This document shows, piece by piece, positions 5,846 to 11,935 of a stretch of 23,736 bases of DNA. The notes beneath the pieces were generated by a model that was not told the origin of the DNA, ran no database searches, and saw only the letters and a program-made list of their open reading frames with translations. Numbering within the stretch: position 1 is the first letter of the stretch; each line of letters begins with the position of its first letter. The position numbers and the translations under genes are program-made. The stretch comes from a virus: positions 1-23,736 of IMG/VR virus record IMGVR_UViG_3300032267_000528, one strand, 5' to 3'.

Positions 5846-6054
5846 GAAGAGCCTCCGATGCCGTAAGGGTTTACAGGTTGCTATGCGACCGCCCCTACCG
5901 AGCCAAGCAGATTGCTGAACTGCTGGGCAACAAAGAACGCTACACCTACCGGGTGCTGCACGACCTCCTAAATTCCGGCTATGTCGGAGTAACCAAATGC
6001 TATTATCACACACTCGAAACCCCAACCCCAACCATTTACAACCCCCAACCATGA
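5842..6054 (+). CDS. Small winged helix-turn-helix protein (70 aa)
   Basis: ATGA overlap with the previous gene. Residues about 4-55 form a winged-helix pattern: helix 1 (SDAVRVYRLLCDR), helix 2 (RAKQIAELLG), recognition helix (RYTYRVLHDLLNSG) and wing (YVGVTKCYYHTL). It is a likely DNA-binding protein, perhaps a phage regulator controlling the divergent region at 3818-3960 or the leader at 6290. It has no effector domain. The target is unknown. Confidence 0.7.
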   Translation: MRRASDAVRVYRLLCDRPYRAKQIAELLGNKERYTYRVLHDLLNSGYVGVTKCYYHTLETPTPTIYNPQP

Positions 6055-6287
6055 GTTACACCCCCCAACCCAACACCTTCACTCTCTTCGCCAACGACAA
6101 GGGCGACAACCCGAAACGCCCAGACTATCGTGGCGACGTGGTCCTTACCGATGGAACCAAGATGCGCCTATCCGGGTGGGTCAAGGAATCCAACGGCAAG
6201 CGGTTTATCAGCGGTAAAGTTGAGCCAATCCAGCAGCAGACCAGCGGTGGAAATTTTGCACCCCAAGACGGTGATATGCCTTTTTAG
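6051..6287 (+). CDS. Mini ssDNA-binding-like protein with SSB-type tail (78 aa)
   Basis: Start at 6051 (ATGA overlap) is chosen over an upstream in-frame ATG at 5997. Residues 10-60 form a compact beta-rich domain (FTLFANDKGDNPKRPDYRGD, then TKMRLSGWVKES and KRFISGKVEP). A Gln/Gly-rich linker leads to the acidic end QDGDMPF. That end resembles the DDDIPF tip by which bacterial SSB recruits repair and replication proteins. The domain is shorter than a full SSB OB-fold, so it may be a reduced OB or a DUF736-like protein. A role in binding ssDNA and recruiting replisome partners is inferred from the tail and from its place between the Rad52-like and primase-helicase genes. Confidence 0.65.
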   Translation: MSYTPQPNTFTLFANDKGDNPKRPDYRGDVVLTDGTKMRLSGWVKESNGKRFISGKVEPIQQQTSGGNFAPQDGDMPF

Positions 6288-6289
6288 TG

Positions 6290-6297
6290 TAAATTTG
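6290..6297 (+). promoter_or_regulatory. Promoter -7 box TAAATTTG before primase leader
   Basis: Exact match to TAnnTTTG, starting 3 bases after the stop of the mini-SSB gene. No good -33 TTG lies at 19-21 bases. Transcription from here would start near 6303 and pass through the structured region and terminator at 6320-6416 before reaching the primase-helicase ATG at 6424. Confidence 0.5.
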
Positions 6298-6306
6298 TGC
6301 CTTAGA

Positions 6307-6314
6307 TACATTTA
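6307..6314 (+). promoter_or_regulatory. Promoter-like box TACATTTA(C)
   Basis: Same TACATTTAC core as at 12332 and 17382 (and GACATTTAC at 23085). At 17382 and 23085 the start codon begins 5 bases after the box. The same offset here predicts an RNA 5' end at about 6320, next to the first paired base of hairpin P1 (6321). Confidence 0.4.
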
Positions 6315-6319
6315 CATAC

Positions 6320-6416
6320 ATAGCCCATTTGTAATTGCAGCCAAATGGTGCTACCGATAAAGGGTTCATTCTCTAACCCCTGCCCCGGCTGCTGCAATCA
6401 GTCGGGGTTTTTTTTT
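6320..6416 (+). ncRNA. Candidate structured RNA or leader with kissing loops
   Basis: Three hairpins can be drawn. P1 pairs 6321-6331 with 6342-6353 (11 bp, one bulged T at 6349; core CCATTTG/CAAATGG) around loop TAATTGCAGC (6332-6341). P2 pairs GGGTT (6362-6366) with AACCC (6375-6379). P3 pairs 6383-6391 with 6399-6407 around loop CTGCAAT (6392-6398) and is followed by nine T. The whole P3 loop is the exact reverse complement of ATTGCAG (6334-6340) in the P1 loop, allowing a 7-bp kissing interaction. It could be a free small RNA of about 97 nt or an attenuator for the primase-helicase 7 bases downstream. I do not recognise a known RNA family. Confidence 0.6.
6383..6416 (+). terminator. Strong intrinsic terminator just before primase-helicase
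   Basis: CCCCGGCTG (6383-6391) pairs with CAGTCGGGG (6399-6407), 9 bp with one G-T wobble, loop CTGCAAT, then T x9 (6408-6416). The next ATG is at 6424, leaving no room for a normal promoter between. Primase-helicase expression must therefore depend on readthrough or regulated antitermination. Confidence 0.85.
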
Positions 6417-6423
6417 CTTATTT

Positions 6424-8658
6424 ATGGCAGAAATATCAATGTTCAAAGCGTCCACCAATGGCGGTGTGCGAAACAATGTCCCCGAAGACCATATGCCCTT
6501 TGTGCAGTACATCCAGGACATCAAAGACGGCATCTACTACACGGAGGTCATGGCCTACCGCAAAGCCAAGACCGAAGAAACCAAACGGAGGCTTTCAGCC
6601 GTAACTCCTTCCGGCAAGTTTAAAAAGCAAGGCAAGGAAGGCCTCGAAACGCATTCCGGCATCATCTGCATCGACATCGATGCCAAGGATAACGATGGTG
6701 TTGACGTGCTTGCAATCCGCCAGGACGAACACCTCTACGCCCTGCATCAAAGCACCGGGGGGCAAGGCTATGCAGCCTACTACCGCATCGAGCCGGACCG
6801 ACACCTGGACGCTTTCTTCGCTTTGGAGAAACGCCTCGCAGACCGTTACCACATCATCGTAGATCCTGCTTGCAAGGACGTGAGCCGGTTGCGGTTCGTA
6901 AGTTTTGACCCGGACGCATTCATCACCGACAAACCCGTTCCGGTATTTAAGACCTACCTACCCAAGGCCAAGGCTGCACCGGTTCCAAAGTTCTACCCAC
7001 ACGGTGAACACGATGTCGAACACATCCTCCAACAAATCGAAGCCAAGCGATTAGACCTGACGGATTCCTATGCCGATTGGGTTAAGATTGGCTTTGCCAT
7101 TGCTGCAAAATACCACGAGCCAGGTGCAGACCTGTTCCACCGAGTTAGTGCTATGTCCCCTAAGTACAACCCGGAAGCCTGCGACAAAAAGTACAAGCAA
7201 CTCTGCAACTCAAAGCAGAATCAAGTATCCTTTGCTTCCTTCATGTGGCTTGCCAAGAACGCAGGTGTAGAGATTCAAACCAAGACCACCAAGCACATCG
7301 TGTCAACAACCAAGTCCCACCGCATGCGTGTCGGGACCAATGGCGGCCCCAAGGACATCAACGCAGCAACGGAAGCAGCGGTTCGGGTACTTCGGGAGAT
7401 AGACAACATCGACATCGATGGCCTTGAAGAAATCGTCGCCAACACGATGGCACTCGATACCACGGAACTAAAGTCCGCTGATACCGAGGACACACCGATA
7501 AAGCAGATAAAGGCTTTCTTACGTTCATTCGACCTAAAACGCAATGCCGTAACTCGTTGCATTGAATACAAAGGTCAACCCATTACCGACGTGGACCTGA
7601 ACAACATTTACGTTGACTGCCTCGAAGCCTTTGGTAAGAAGGAGGTCAACATGCAACTCGTTGGGGCCATAGTGGATTCGGACTTTACACCGACTTACAA
7701 TCCATTCACCCAGTTCTTTGCCCGGCACGGTCATCGCAATCCTACCGGGTGCATCGAAGCCCTGACCAATACCATCCGAACAACCAATCAGGACCATACG
7801 TTTGTGCAACTCTGCATCACCAAATGGCTCTGCTCGGTCATTGCAAGTATGCACGGGGAATACTCCTTGACCATATTGGTGCTTTGTGGCGACCAAGGTA
7901 TCGGCAAGACCAATTTCTTTCGTAACCTGCTGCCCGATGAACTTCGGGCCTATTACGGGGAATCCAAACTGGATGCCGGCAAGGACGATGAAATTCTCAT
8001 GTGCAAGAAGATAATCCTCTGCGATGACGAGTTCGGTGGCAAATCCAAGCAGGAAGCCAAGAAACTGAAGGAACTATCCTCCAAGCAGACATTCAGCATC
8101 CGCAAGCCCTACGGCCGGGTCCATGAGGAACTGAATCGGTATGCGGTCCTTTGCGGTACAAGCAACGACGAGGAAGTCATCAACGACCCAACGGGTAACC
8201 GTAGGATCCTGCCCATTGTAATCAGCGAGATTGACTGGGATGCCTATGCAGCCATCGACAAGACGGACCTGTTTATCGAGGCCATGCATTCATACAAATT
8301 ACACGGAGCCGATGCCTGGCAACTATCCAAGGCCGAAATCAAGATGCTGAACAATCACACCATGCACAACGTGCAGCCGGCTATCGAGAAAGAAATGCTC
8401 CTAAACCTGTTTACCATCCCGATGGATTATAGCGACCCCTACGGCAAGTGGATGAGCAATACCGAAATCAAGGACCTCATTGAAACCTGCACCAAGCAGC
8501 ACATCAGTTCGCACAAACTCGGAGCGGTCCTAAAGTCACTTGGCTGTAAGAAAATGACACGTCGGGAGCGGAATTTTCTTCCGTGCTACTTTTTGGTCAA
8601 AAATGCCGATAAAAGTGACTACGCCCAAAAGGTTGATAATAAGCGACATCCGTTCTAG
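6424..8658 (+). CDS. Primase-helicase: BT4734-type primase, PriCT-2 and VirE/SF3-like ATPase (744 aa)
   Basis: Bifunctional replication protein that primes and unwinds phage DNA. Residues about 1-180 are an archaeo-eukaryotic-type primase domain of the BT4734/VirE N-terminal kind; acidic residues of IDIDAKD (83-89) are the likely metal ligands, with HQSTGGQGYAAYY at 108-120. Residues about 195-285 form a PriCT-2-like linker (DSYADWVKIGFAIAAKYHEP). Residues about 430-640 form a VirE/VapE-type ATPase: Walker A GDQGIGKT (489-496), Walker B KKIILCDDEF (528-537), sensor CGTSND (577-582) and PTGNRRILP (589-597). The C-terminus (about 645-744) may bind DNA. The ATG lies 7 bases after a terminator T-run. 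The 3' end contains one copy of the origin iteron (8613-8622). Confidence 0.9.
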   Translation: MAEISMFKASTNGGVRNNVPEDHMPFVQYIQDIKDGIYYTEVMAYRKAKTEETKRRLSAVTPSGKFKKQGKEGLETHSGIICIDIDAKDNDGVDVLAIRQDEHLYALHQSTGGQGYAAYYRIEPDRHLDAFFALEKRLADRYHIIVDPACKDVSRLRFVSFDPDAFITDKPVPVFKTYLPKAKAAPVPKFYPHGEHDVEHILQQIEAKRLDLTDSYADWVKIGFAIAAKYHEPGADLFHRVSAMSPKYNPEACDKKYKQLCNSKQNQVSFASFMWLAKNAGVEIQTKTTKHIVSTTKSHRMRVGTNGGPKDINAATEAAVRVLREIDNIDIDGLEEIVANTMALDTTELKSADTEDTPIKQIKAFLRSFDLKRNAVTRCIEYKGQPITDVDLNNIYVDCLEAFGKKEVNMQLVGAIVDSDFTPTYNPFTQFFARHGHRNPTGCIEALTNTIRTTNQDHTFVQLCITKWLCSVIASMHGEYSLTILVLCGDQGIGKTNFFRNLLPDELRAYYGESKLDAGKDDEILMCKKIILCDDEFGGKSKQEAKKLKELSSKQTFSIRKPYGRVHEELNRYAVLCGTSNDEEVINDPTGNRRILPIVISEIDWDAYAAIDKTDLFIEAMHSYKLHGADAWQLSKAEIKMLNNHTMHNVQPAIEKEMLLNLFTIPMDYSDPYGKWMSNTEIKDLIETCTKQHISSHKLGAVLKSLGCKKMTRRERNFLPCYFLVKNADKSDYAQKVDNKRHPF

Positions 8659-10878: not shown

Positions 10879-11058
10879 ATGGAATGGATTAAATGCTTGG
10901 ACAGGATGCCGACACCTTACGAGCCTGTCCTGATATTCACGACCGACATGAATCAAGCGTATGCGTGGCTTGGCGACGGCCGTTGGTACTACGAGCATCA
11001 AACGTGGTTCCTAATTGAAGTCAGCCATTGGATGCCCCTACCCCCAAACCCGTTTTAA
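10879..11058 (+). CDS. DUF551-like protein (59 aa)
   Basis: The start at 10879 gives MEWIKCLDRMPTPYEPVLIF and the C-terminus reads SHWMPLPPNPF. This W(I/L)....RMP....VL...... THWMPLP layout is the signature of DUF551 proteins, common in phages and prophages, with unknown function. The longer ORF starting at 10777 is rejected because it overlaps the 50-aa gene. Confidence 0.8.
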   Translation: MEWIKCLDRMPTPYEPVLIFTTDMNQAYAWLGDGRWYYEHQTWFLIEVSHWMPLPPNPF

Positions 11059-11060
11059 CC

Positions 11061-11360
11061 ATGGACCTAATCTCACGAACCATCCTTGGCTACACGGCAG
11101 AGGTCGTCGGAGTCAGCCCAGACGACATCTTGAGCGAAGTCAAGACCCAAGAACTGGTCCTTGCTCGGTCAATCTTTGCCGACATCGCCTACTCGGAATA
11201 CCTCTACACTTACTGCCAAATTGGTCGAATCATTAAGAGGAACCACGCAACCGTCATGCACAACCTCGAAATCCTTGCGATAAACATGAGAGCAAGGCCC
11301 GACATTAAATTCCTTCGTACACAGGTTTTGAACAGGACGAGAGATTTTTTGCAACATTAG
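11061..11360 (+). CDS. DnaA domain IV-like DNA-binding protein (99 aa)
   Basis: The start at 11061 is 2 bases after the DUF551 gene. Residues about 20-78 resemble the DnaA C-terminal duplex-binding domain: helices around VSPDDILSEVKTQELVLARS and YTYCQIGRIIKRNHATVMHN, where HATVMH corresponds to the DnaA signature that contacts the DnaA box. There is no AAA+ ATPase domain, so it cannot act like full DnaA. It may bind phage or host origin sequences as an initiator, recruiter or competitor. The iterons at 8613-8861 are candidate targets, though they do not look like a standard DnaA box. Confidence 0.75.
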   Translation: MDLISRTILGYTAEVVGVSPDDILSEVKTQELVLARSIFADIAYSEYLYTYCQIGRIIKRNHATVMHNLEILAINMRARPDIKFLRTQVLNRTRDFLQH

Positions 11361-11386: not shown

Positions 11387-11935
11387 GTGAACGCAGAGGC
11401 TACCATCCTTGACCTTTATCGCAGCGGAGAAATCCGCAAGGCTTGCCTCACCATTACGGGGGGCAATCCGCTTTGGAAGGACCTCGAACAAGAGGTCGTC
11501 CTGATTCTGCTCGAAAAAGACCCCGACAAGATTACCAAGATGCAGGACCAAGGCTACCTGCGATTCTACATCGTTCGGCTCATCATGAACCTGTACCGGG
11601 GCAACAACAACCAGTTTGCCAAGAAGTACCGCCACCACGACGAGAGGGTCGAAGTGGACCCCGAAACCCAAGAACTAAGCAAGGACTACGACTCCCTGCT
11701 CGACGACCTTTGGGCCATTGCCCAGCAAGAGATGGACTCTTGGGCCAAGGACGGGGCGTTCCCCTACGACAAGGAACTGCTGAACCTGCTGATGCAGACA
11801 GGCAACATGAAGGCCATGAGCCGGGAAACTGGCATTCCGTATAGGTCCATCATCTACTCAATCGAACAGGCCAAGGCCAAAATCAAAACCGCAATTGAAG
11901 CCAATGGATATACTGGTCTATCCCATCCTGATTAG
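11387..11935 (+). CDS. Sigma-factor-like phage protein (182 aa)
   Basis: GTG start shortly after a promoter-like box. Residues about 28-72 resemble sigma-70 region 2 (PLWKDLEQEVVLILLEKDPD, then YLRFYIVRLIMNLYRGNN). Residues about 132-170 resemble region 4, with a helix-turn-helix (TGNMKAMSRETGIPYRSIIY followed by SIEQAKAKIKTAI). A two-domain protein of this size matches ECF-type sigma factors or phage late regulators. Its position between replication genes and the packaging/structural genes fits a middle-to-late transcription switch, and the recurring TACATTTAC boxes are candidate targets. The identity is a pattern judgement and needs a profile search. Confidence 0.6.
   Translation: MNAEATILDLYRSGEIRKACLTITGGNPLWKDLEQEVVLILLEKDPDKITKMQDQGYLRFYIVRLIMNLYRGNNNQFAKKYRHHDERVEVDPETQELSKDYDSLLDDLWAIAQQEMDSWAKDGAFPYDKELLNLLMQTGNMKAMSRETGIPYRSIIYSIEQAKAKIKTAIEANGYTGLSHPD

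Follow-up and report, generated by a model that had tools for sequence, protein, structure and literature searches.

A candidate RNA family with complementary, covarying hairpin loops upstream of replication genes in metagenomic phages

The window analyzed here is the whole stretch of 23,736 nucleotides of viral DNA at positions 1 to 23,736 of the IMG/VR record IMGVR_UViG_3300032267_000528. Between an SSB-like gene and a primase-helicase gene lies a short region that is predicted to encode a structured RNA with three hairpins (P1, P2 and P3), two of which have complementary loops. The features of this region are as follows.

5997..6287, plus strand: SSB-like gene upstream of the RNA, likely start 6052 (PHROG 18154, E 3.6e-8)
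6290..6297, plus strand: TAAATTTG, upstream promoter-like box that fits the Bacteroidota -7 consensus TAnnTTTG, at conserved spacing
6307..6315, plus strand: TACATTTAC, -7-like box directly before P1, ~100% conserved in group I (the relatives that include the window RNA)
~6318-6321, plus strand: predicted 5' end of the RNA
6321-6331 with 6342-6353, plus strand: hairpin P1, TAGC-CCATTTG with CAAATGG-t-GCTA (sequence check and RNAfold)
6332-6341, plus strand: P1 loop, TAATTGCAGC
6334..6340, plus strand: kissing segment 1, ATTGCAG, inside the P1 loop (complement of the P3 loop, covariation, loop-blind set)
before P2, plus strand: A-rich linker GATAAA
6362..6379, plus strand: hairpin P2, GGGTT at 6362-6366 with AACCC at 6375-6379 (RNAfold)
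6383..6407, plus strand: terminator hairpin P3, CCCCGGCTG at 6383-6391 with CAGTCGGGG at 6399-6407
6392..6398, plus strand: kissing segment 2, CTGCAAT, the entire P3 loop (perfect complement of 6334-6340, covariation)
6408..6416, plus strand: T9 of the intrinsic terminator and predicted 3' end of the RNA (T tract in all aligned members)
6424..8658, plus strand: primase-helicase gene (BT4734-like_N, PriCT_2, VapE-like; Pfam, PHROG), the first gene past the RNA

The predicted window RNA is ~97 nt long (family range about 97-110 nt), and the ATG of the primase-helicase at 6424 lies 7 nt past T9. RNAfold gives the window RNA -34 kcal/mol (z = -3.15, with 0/200 shuffles equally good), and P1, P2 and P3 make up both the minimum-energy and the centroid structure. 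P3 and T9 have the form of an intrinsic terminator, a G+C-rich hairpin followed by a U tract. The initial annotation of this DNA had placed the P1 and P3 hairpins, their loops, T9 and the ATG at coordinates that were all correct on re-check; P2, which is conserved in relatives, was missing from its fold. The loops of P1 and P3 match over 7 nt, or 8 nt counting an adjacent G/C. The exact complementarity of these loops, described in that annotation as unlikely to be chance, recurs across ~16 loop sequences with compensatory change, and the diversity of loop types and the massive compensatory change in relatives uphold its non-chance nature. An ordinary terminator with a chance match was rejected because comparable terminators of this DNA seldom have a 7-nt match upstream, and shuffled and slid covariation controls fail too. 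No tRNA or tmRNA was detected in the window.

Relatives of the RNA were collected by searching IMG/VR with the downstream primase-helicase, which gave 80 loci; three more queries and a terminator pattern added others. This collection, which is biased toward contigs with recognizable terminator stems or P2, holds at least 104 distinct relatives (RNA bodies kept) with about 16 loop pairs, and nearly all of the 104 hold 7-9 matched loop bases. The pairs are ATTGCAG/CTGCAAT (window), ATTCCAG/CTGGAAT, ATAGCAG/CTGCTAT, GTCGCAG/CTGCGAC, ATTCAGG/CCTGAAT, TTCCGG/CCGGAA, TTGCGG/CCGCAA, TAACGG/CCGTTA, GTCGTAG/CTACGAC, GTCGAAG/CTTCGAC, TTCGCAG/CTGCGAA, GATACCAGC/GCTGGTATC, GTAGGAG/CTCCTAC, GGTGGTGC/GCACCACC and GTAGCAG/CTGCTAC. 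Pairing is broken in 3/104: L345 (contig 3300020044_006225) joins loops of two different types, and L420 and L090 (= L078) have one loop mismatch each. In L429, loop pairing is kept through a G-U pair. The three mismatched RNAs could be broken copies, recombinants, assembly chimeras or natural test cases; alternatively, loop pairing may not be strictly essential.

A covariance model built from group II alone matches the window RNA at 46.4 bits (E 2.3e-9) and other group I members as well, and the group I model matches group II reciprocally. The group II model also matches a third group, L070/L071, at 34-37 bits (E 1e-6 to 5e-6). Weak model matches in three bacterial genomes (22-29 bits) were rejected, as they lack matched loops and are generic terminator hairpins or spurious fits. 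Because such chance fits reach 22-29 bits, the membership of L070/L071 needs position and matched loops in addition to the score. The model matches place group I, group II and L070/L071 in one RNA family. One copy of the RNA is present per complete genome searched; a second copy in G011 results only from repeated contig ends, and no copy was found in G014, whose primase is 67% identical. The window RNA has no match at gathering threshold among the 4227 models of Rfam 15, and the best sub-threshold scores, 19.4 bits for the window and 18.2 bits for group II, are all below the gathering scores. The RNA was not found at the isolate-phage and bacterial-contig primases searched, nor was an account of such an RNA found in the literature searched. 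The initial suggestion of a structured loop-loop RNA that ends in a terminator before replication genes and fits no recognized class is strongly supported. The family appears to be undescribed, outside Rfam and the isolate phages searched, and widespread in metagenomic phages of freshwater Bacteroidota-type hosts.

Several variants of the RNA were observed. In L049/L050, upstream of the primase, the P2 loop is much longer (~50 nt); insertions in P2 are thus tolerated, with P1, P3 and the kissing helix retained. RNAs of the L086/L093 type (allele CCTTCGAC) have whole kissing segments and have mostly lost the P1 stem (~7/11 positions pair), which indicates that a full P1 hairpin may not be needed for the kiss. 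A larger, different leader precedes primases that are 69% and 63% identical in L057 (2770-2915) and L065 (1060-1190), respectively. It consists of a GTC-GAAA-GAC hairpin, then the hairpin CCCGATTSGAACCCGGG and finally a long terminator that contains an inner hairpin, and its segments TGGAACC/GGTTCCA and TCGAACC/GGTTCGA are also matched and covarying. Neither the group I nor the group II covariance model finds these leaders, which are possibly a distant or convergent version of the RNA.

The loop-loop pairing was probed with a loop-blind test, consisting of two scans of the collection with a pattern made of P2 and the first P3 bases only. A perfect loop complement of 7-9 nt is present in 43 of the 47 distinct RNAs of this set, and one more pairs with a G-U pair; when loops are instead set against foreign loops from their group as a control, 11/271 combinations match. 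Own loops form duplexes with a mean energy of -8.8 kcal/mol, and with foreign loops the mean is -2.4 kcal/mol. Two further matched types come from these scans (AGTGCGAA with TTCGCAC and TCTGCTAC with GTAGCAGA). In the group II alignment (A3, 27 sequences, pseudoknot written out), 95.1% of structure cells pair overall. The kissing helix is paired in 99.5% of cells, with both-sided changes at 6/7 pairs, and P1 in 91%, with both-sided changes at 8/11 pairs. The covariation score is 0.415, compared to 0.124 for shuffled and at most 0.094 for slid alignments, and 0/500 shuffles reach it. In group I (29 sequences), the kissing helix is 96.9% paired with both-sided changes at 4/7 pairs, and the P1 pairing figures are too low as P1 columns are partly misaligned between subtypes. 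P3 is paired in 100% of cells in both alignments, with compensatory changes, whereas the P2 stem is near-invariant and its loop varies in length and sequence. The second U-A pair of the otherwise hypervariable kiss is invariant in 56/56 RNAs (A3 columns 33/95, A2 columns 36/102). RNAalifold recovers the same P1, P2 and P3 unprompted.

The strand on which selection acts can be read from the non-Watson-Crick pairs. Group II contains 51 G-U pairs versus 6 A-C mismatches, leaving out the weak outer P2 pair (15 cells), and G-U pairs are far above A-C in P1, P3 and the kiss. This excess therefore points to selection on the sense strand as RNA. The initial annotation had named relatives lacking loop complementarity as evidence against the RNA and compensatory changes as evidence for it; complementarity is present in nearly all relatives, and compensatory changes were found in P1, P3 and the loop-loop helix. 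The comparison shows that P1, P3 and the kissing helix are maintained by sense-strand compensatory change.

Loop types turn over quickly. With a downstream identity of at least 99% (compared over 500 nt or more), phages differ in loop type in 3/5 pairs, and with 97-99% identity they differ in 11/18 pairs; L093 and L094 have different loop types beside an identical downstream stretch. At least 31 loop-type changes are required on a tree of 65 primase genes. Many largely orthogonal loop types coexist among near-identical phages. Furthermore, the P2 type reassorts against the loop type, each of the four possible combinations with pairs of loop types being present in both groups. As P2 lies between the loops, these combinations indicate recombination inside the RNA, yet the loops remain matched. 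Loop types that switch and recombine against P2 yet stay matched therefore indicate that selection maintains the pairing, and recombination within the RNA with the loops still matched is the strongest sign of such selection.

The -7 promoter element of Bacteroidota is TAnnTTTG, and a -33 motif is noted as unconfirmed for Flavobacterium johnsoniae (PMC7366714), so that the missing -33 motif here is uninformative. The sequence TAA[AC]TTTG is found at a constant distance in ~98-100% of 54 distinct relatives. In group I it is fixed 9 nt upstream of TACATTTAC, and each of the two boxes is ~100% conserved; L049/L050 carry TACATTTGC at the TACATTTAC position. Group II has an invariant TATATTTG, a perfect TAnnTTTG, a few nt before P1 where group I has TACATTTAC. 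The TACATTTAC box had initially been taken to predict the RNA 5' end by analogy with boxes before late start codons. Its ~100% conservation at a fixed distance in relatives agrees with such a role, but the late start codon support is weak; the other two window copies (12332, 17382) lie in or against coding sequence. The gap from the T tract to the ATG is too short for a promoter, and the -7 box keeps a constant distance before P1. From these arrangements, we infer that the family RNA is transcribed from its own promoter. We likewise infer from the promoter type and the primase relatives that the host phylum is Bacteroidota, the phages being known from metagenome contigs alone.

The gene after the RNA is a primase-helicase in 67/104 relatives (62 by script, 5 by reading the listed sequence), a DUF6291 protein in 19/104, a primosomal/initiation-like protein in 7/104, a ParB-like protein in 6/104 and a DUF3223 protein in 5/104. 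Beyond the ParB-like and DUF3223 genes, where inspected, lie DUF6291/initiator and DnaB-type helicase genes. The RNA thus heads two unrelated modules, either a VapE/PriCT primase-helicase or an initiator with DnaB, and is therefore no primase-specific leader. The earlier proposal of a replication regulator is consistent with a location before replication genes, but its restriction to the primase was too narrow, as 37/104 RNAs precede the non-homologous module. Loop types found in multiple phages mostly occur before several gene kinds, and the terminator lies 7 to ~35 nt before the first replication gene across the family. The RNA appears to be a module of its own that heads interchangeable replication operons, usually after the SSB gene. 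No Phage_integrase was found in 18 related records, which speaks against prophage immunity but not against other integration or plasmid states. A replication origin was also rejected, as no signal was observed at the RNA from GC skew, AT-rich DNA or DnaA boxes (within 1.5 kb). The window phage encodes both terminase subunits.

Two other genes of the window were noted. An orphan DnaA domain IV (Bac_DnaA_C, E 6e-11), apart from any DnaA ATPase, is encoded at 11028-11360, and similar genes lie downstream of both kinds of replication module. The 182-aa protein encoded at 11387-11935 is conserved in these phages and has no Pfam or PHROG match; by eye, its C-terminal part has the look of a sigma-factor-type helix-turn-helix, making it a candidate phage transcription factor.

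With moderate confidence, we propose that the RNA is a self-folding, terminated leader or small RNA that gates the replication operon, in which the kiss locks the fold and the loops are kept matched. Transcripts from the RNA's own promoter would reach the intrinsic terminator before the first replication gene. P1, P2 and the terminator P3 would form, and the P1 loop would kiss the P3 loop. Most transcripts would presumably end at P3 to yield a stable small RNA, such that expression of the replication operon would depend on readthrough past P3. The kissing helix may hold P3 together with the 5' end in a single compact fold, and loop identity would matter in that the RNA has to pair with itself while avoiding the RNAs of related phages. 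A stack of P1 (11-12 bp), the kiss (7 bp) and P3 (9-10 bp) is estimated at ~28 bp, or ~80 Å, which the 8-10 nt linker, P2 and 2-3 nt could span, so that an intramolecular kiss is possible by this estimate. Folding of transcripts truncated ahead of the 3' arm of P3 gave no shared, conserved antiterminator, and a simple switch model is therefore unsupported. The initial idea that the kissing state decides readthrough gains no support from this result, and the kiss is geometrically compatible with a finished terminator hairpin; the terminator may simply be constitutive. With respect to targets in trans, loop 8-mers occur in their own genomes about as often as expected (53 seen versus 49.8 expected in 105 deduplicated contigs), and an apparent excess in nine genomes vanished on these contigs. 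Each loop would therefore have the other one as its partner, either within one RNA copy or between copies.

Parts of this arrangement are found in known systems, which are compared here feature by feature; none is established as the class of this RNA. In the pRNA of the phi29 family, two loops of one molecule covary and stay complementary while their sequence differs between phages (PMC12670572). The present RNA likewise has covarying, complementary loops in one small phage RNA. In contrast, phi29 pRNA (Rfam Phage_pRNA) uses a 3-4 nt intermolecular pairing versus 7-9 nt here, and it serves DNA packaging without a terminator loop, whereas here the terminator loop is a pairing partner at replication genes. 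The Phage_pRNA covariance model has no match in the window or group II in the Rfam search. The replication operon of satellite phage P4 encodes a primase-helicase. In P4 CI immunity, RNA-RNA pairing governs transcription termination in the leader of this operon (PMC4825925), and the present RNA shares the replication-operon leader position and the termination theme. However, P4 CI acts in lysogeny as a processed RNA that pairs to two separate leader sites, while here one compact RNA has its own intrinsic terminator and the 18 records contain no integrase. The pT181-type attenuator places kissing hairpins and an intrinsic terminator ahead of a replication gene, as is seen here, and loop identity sets its specificity (PMC4878617). 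It differs in requiring an antisense RNA and an antiterminator, neither of which was found here in searches for this promoter type (TAnnTTTG) on the minus strand near 6420 and in folds of cut transcripts. In ColE1 RNA I/RNA II, compatibility types are set by the 7-nt loops that form kissing complexes. There, complementarity comes free from antisense transcription, whereas here two loops on one strand must coevolve.

It is possible, if doubtful, that the RNA is a free-standing small RNA whose terminator merely ends it and which acts on a protein or on an RNA of host or phage origin, for instance as a decoy or in anti-defence. The replication operon would then be expressed from elsewhere or by ordinary readthrough. 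The strong, constitutive-looking terminator in every member and the lack of a conserved antiterminator suit this reading, as do the independence of the RNA from the operon that follows and the quick turnover of exposed sequence, expected in an arms race. However, the RNA stays in front of the replication operon even where one operon has been exchanged for another, the variable loops, being paired with one another, are buried and not free for targets, and loop 8-mers are unenriched in the phages' own genomes.

Pairing between copies would give the loop types another meaning. It is rather improbable that these are typed self-recognition RNAs of virulent phages, with types swapped like immunity or incompatibility groups and inter-copy pairing setting readthrough. 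Also unlikely is a released RNA that uses its P1 or P3 loop to pair with same-type RNA, nascent or mature, and so sets termination or replication; loop types would then define compatibility or superinfection groups, as in plasmid incompatibility or the RNA immunity of the P4/P1 type. The many largely orthogonal types among near-identical phages, the energy gap between own and foreign duplexes (means of -8.8 and -2.4 kcal/mol) and the rarity of broken loop pairs (3/104) are consistent with such recognition in trans, but cis pairing fully fits the data and would compete, and the 18 integrase-free records give no known lysogenic state for such control. Self-assembly into rings or chains, in which P1 pairs with P3 of the next molecule, is very unlikely. 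Two covarying loops in one phage RNA are the signature of pRNA (PMC12670572), and RNA cages such as ROOL and GOLLD use intermolecular kissing loops (PMC12286853); against this, the linker and helix lengths permit an intramolecular kiss, no Rfam pRNA, ROOL or GOLLD match was obtained, and the RNA lies beside replication and not packaging genes in a phage that encodes both terminase subunits. A DNA-level element, either an origin or a module-exchange junction with hairpins acting as single-stranded DNA, would explain the constant place at the replication module border and the frequent recombination in and around the RNA but is hardly credible given the strand-specific G-U pairs, the conserved promoter box and T tract, and the lack of an origin-consistent GC-skew extremum or of DnaA boxes within 1.5 kb.

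To our knowledge, a terminator loop that forms half of a hypervariable, nearly always matched loop pair has not been described to date. On a shared scaffold, the family provides ~16 naturally occurring kissing-loop pairs that are largely orthogonal, and its few natural mismatched variants can be used as controls, making function in cis versus trans directly testable. If the reading of the RNA as a self-folding, terminated gate holds, it would represent RNA-level control of the onset of replication in Bacteroidota phages.
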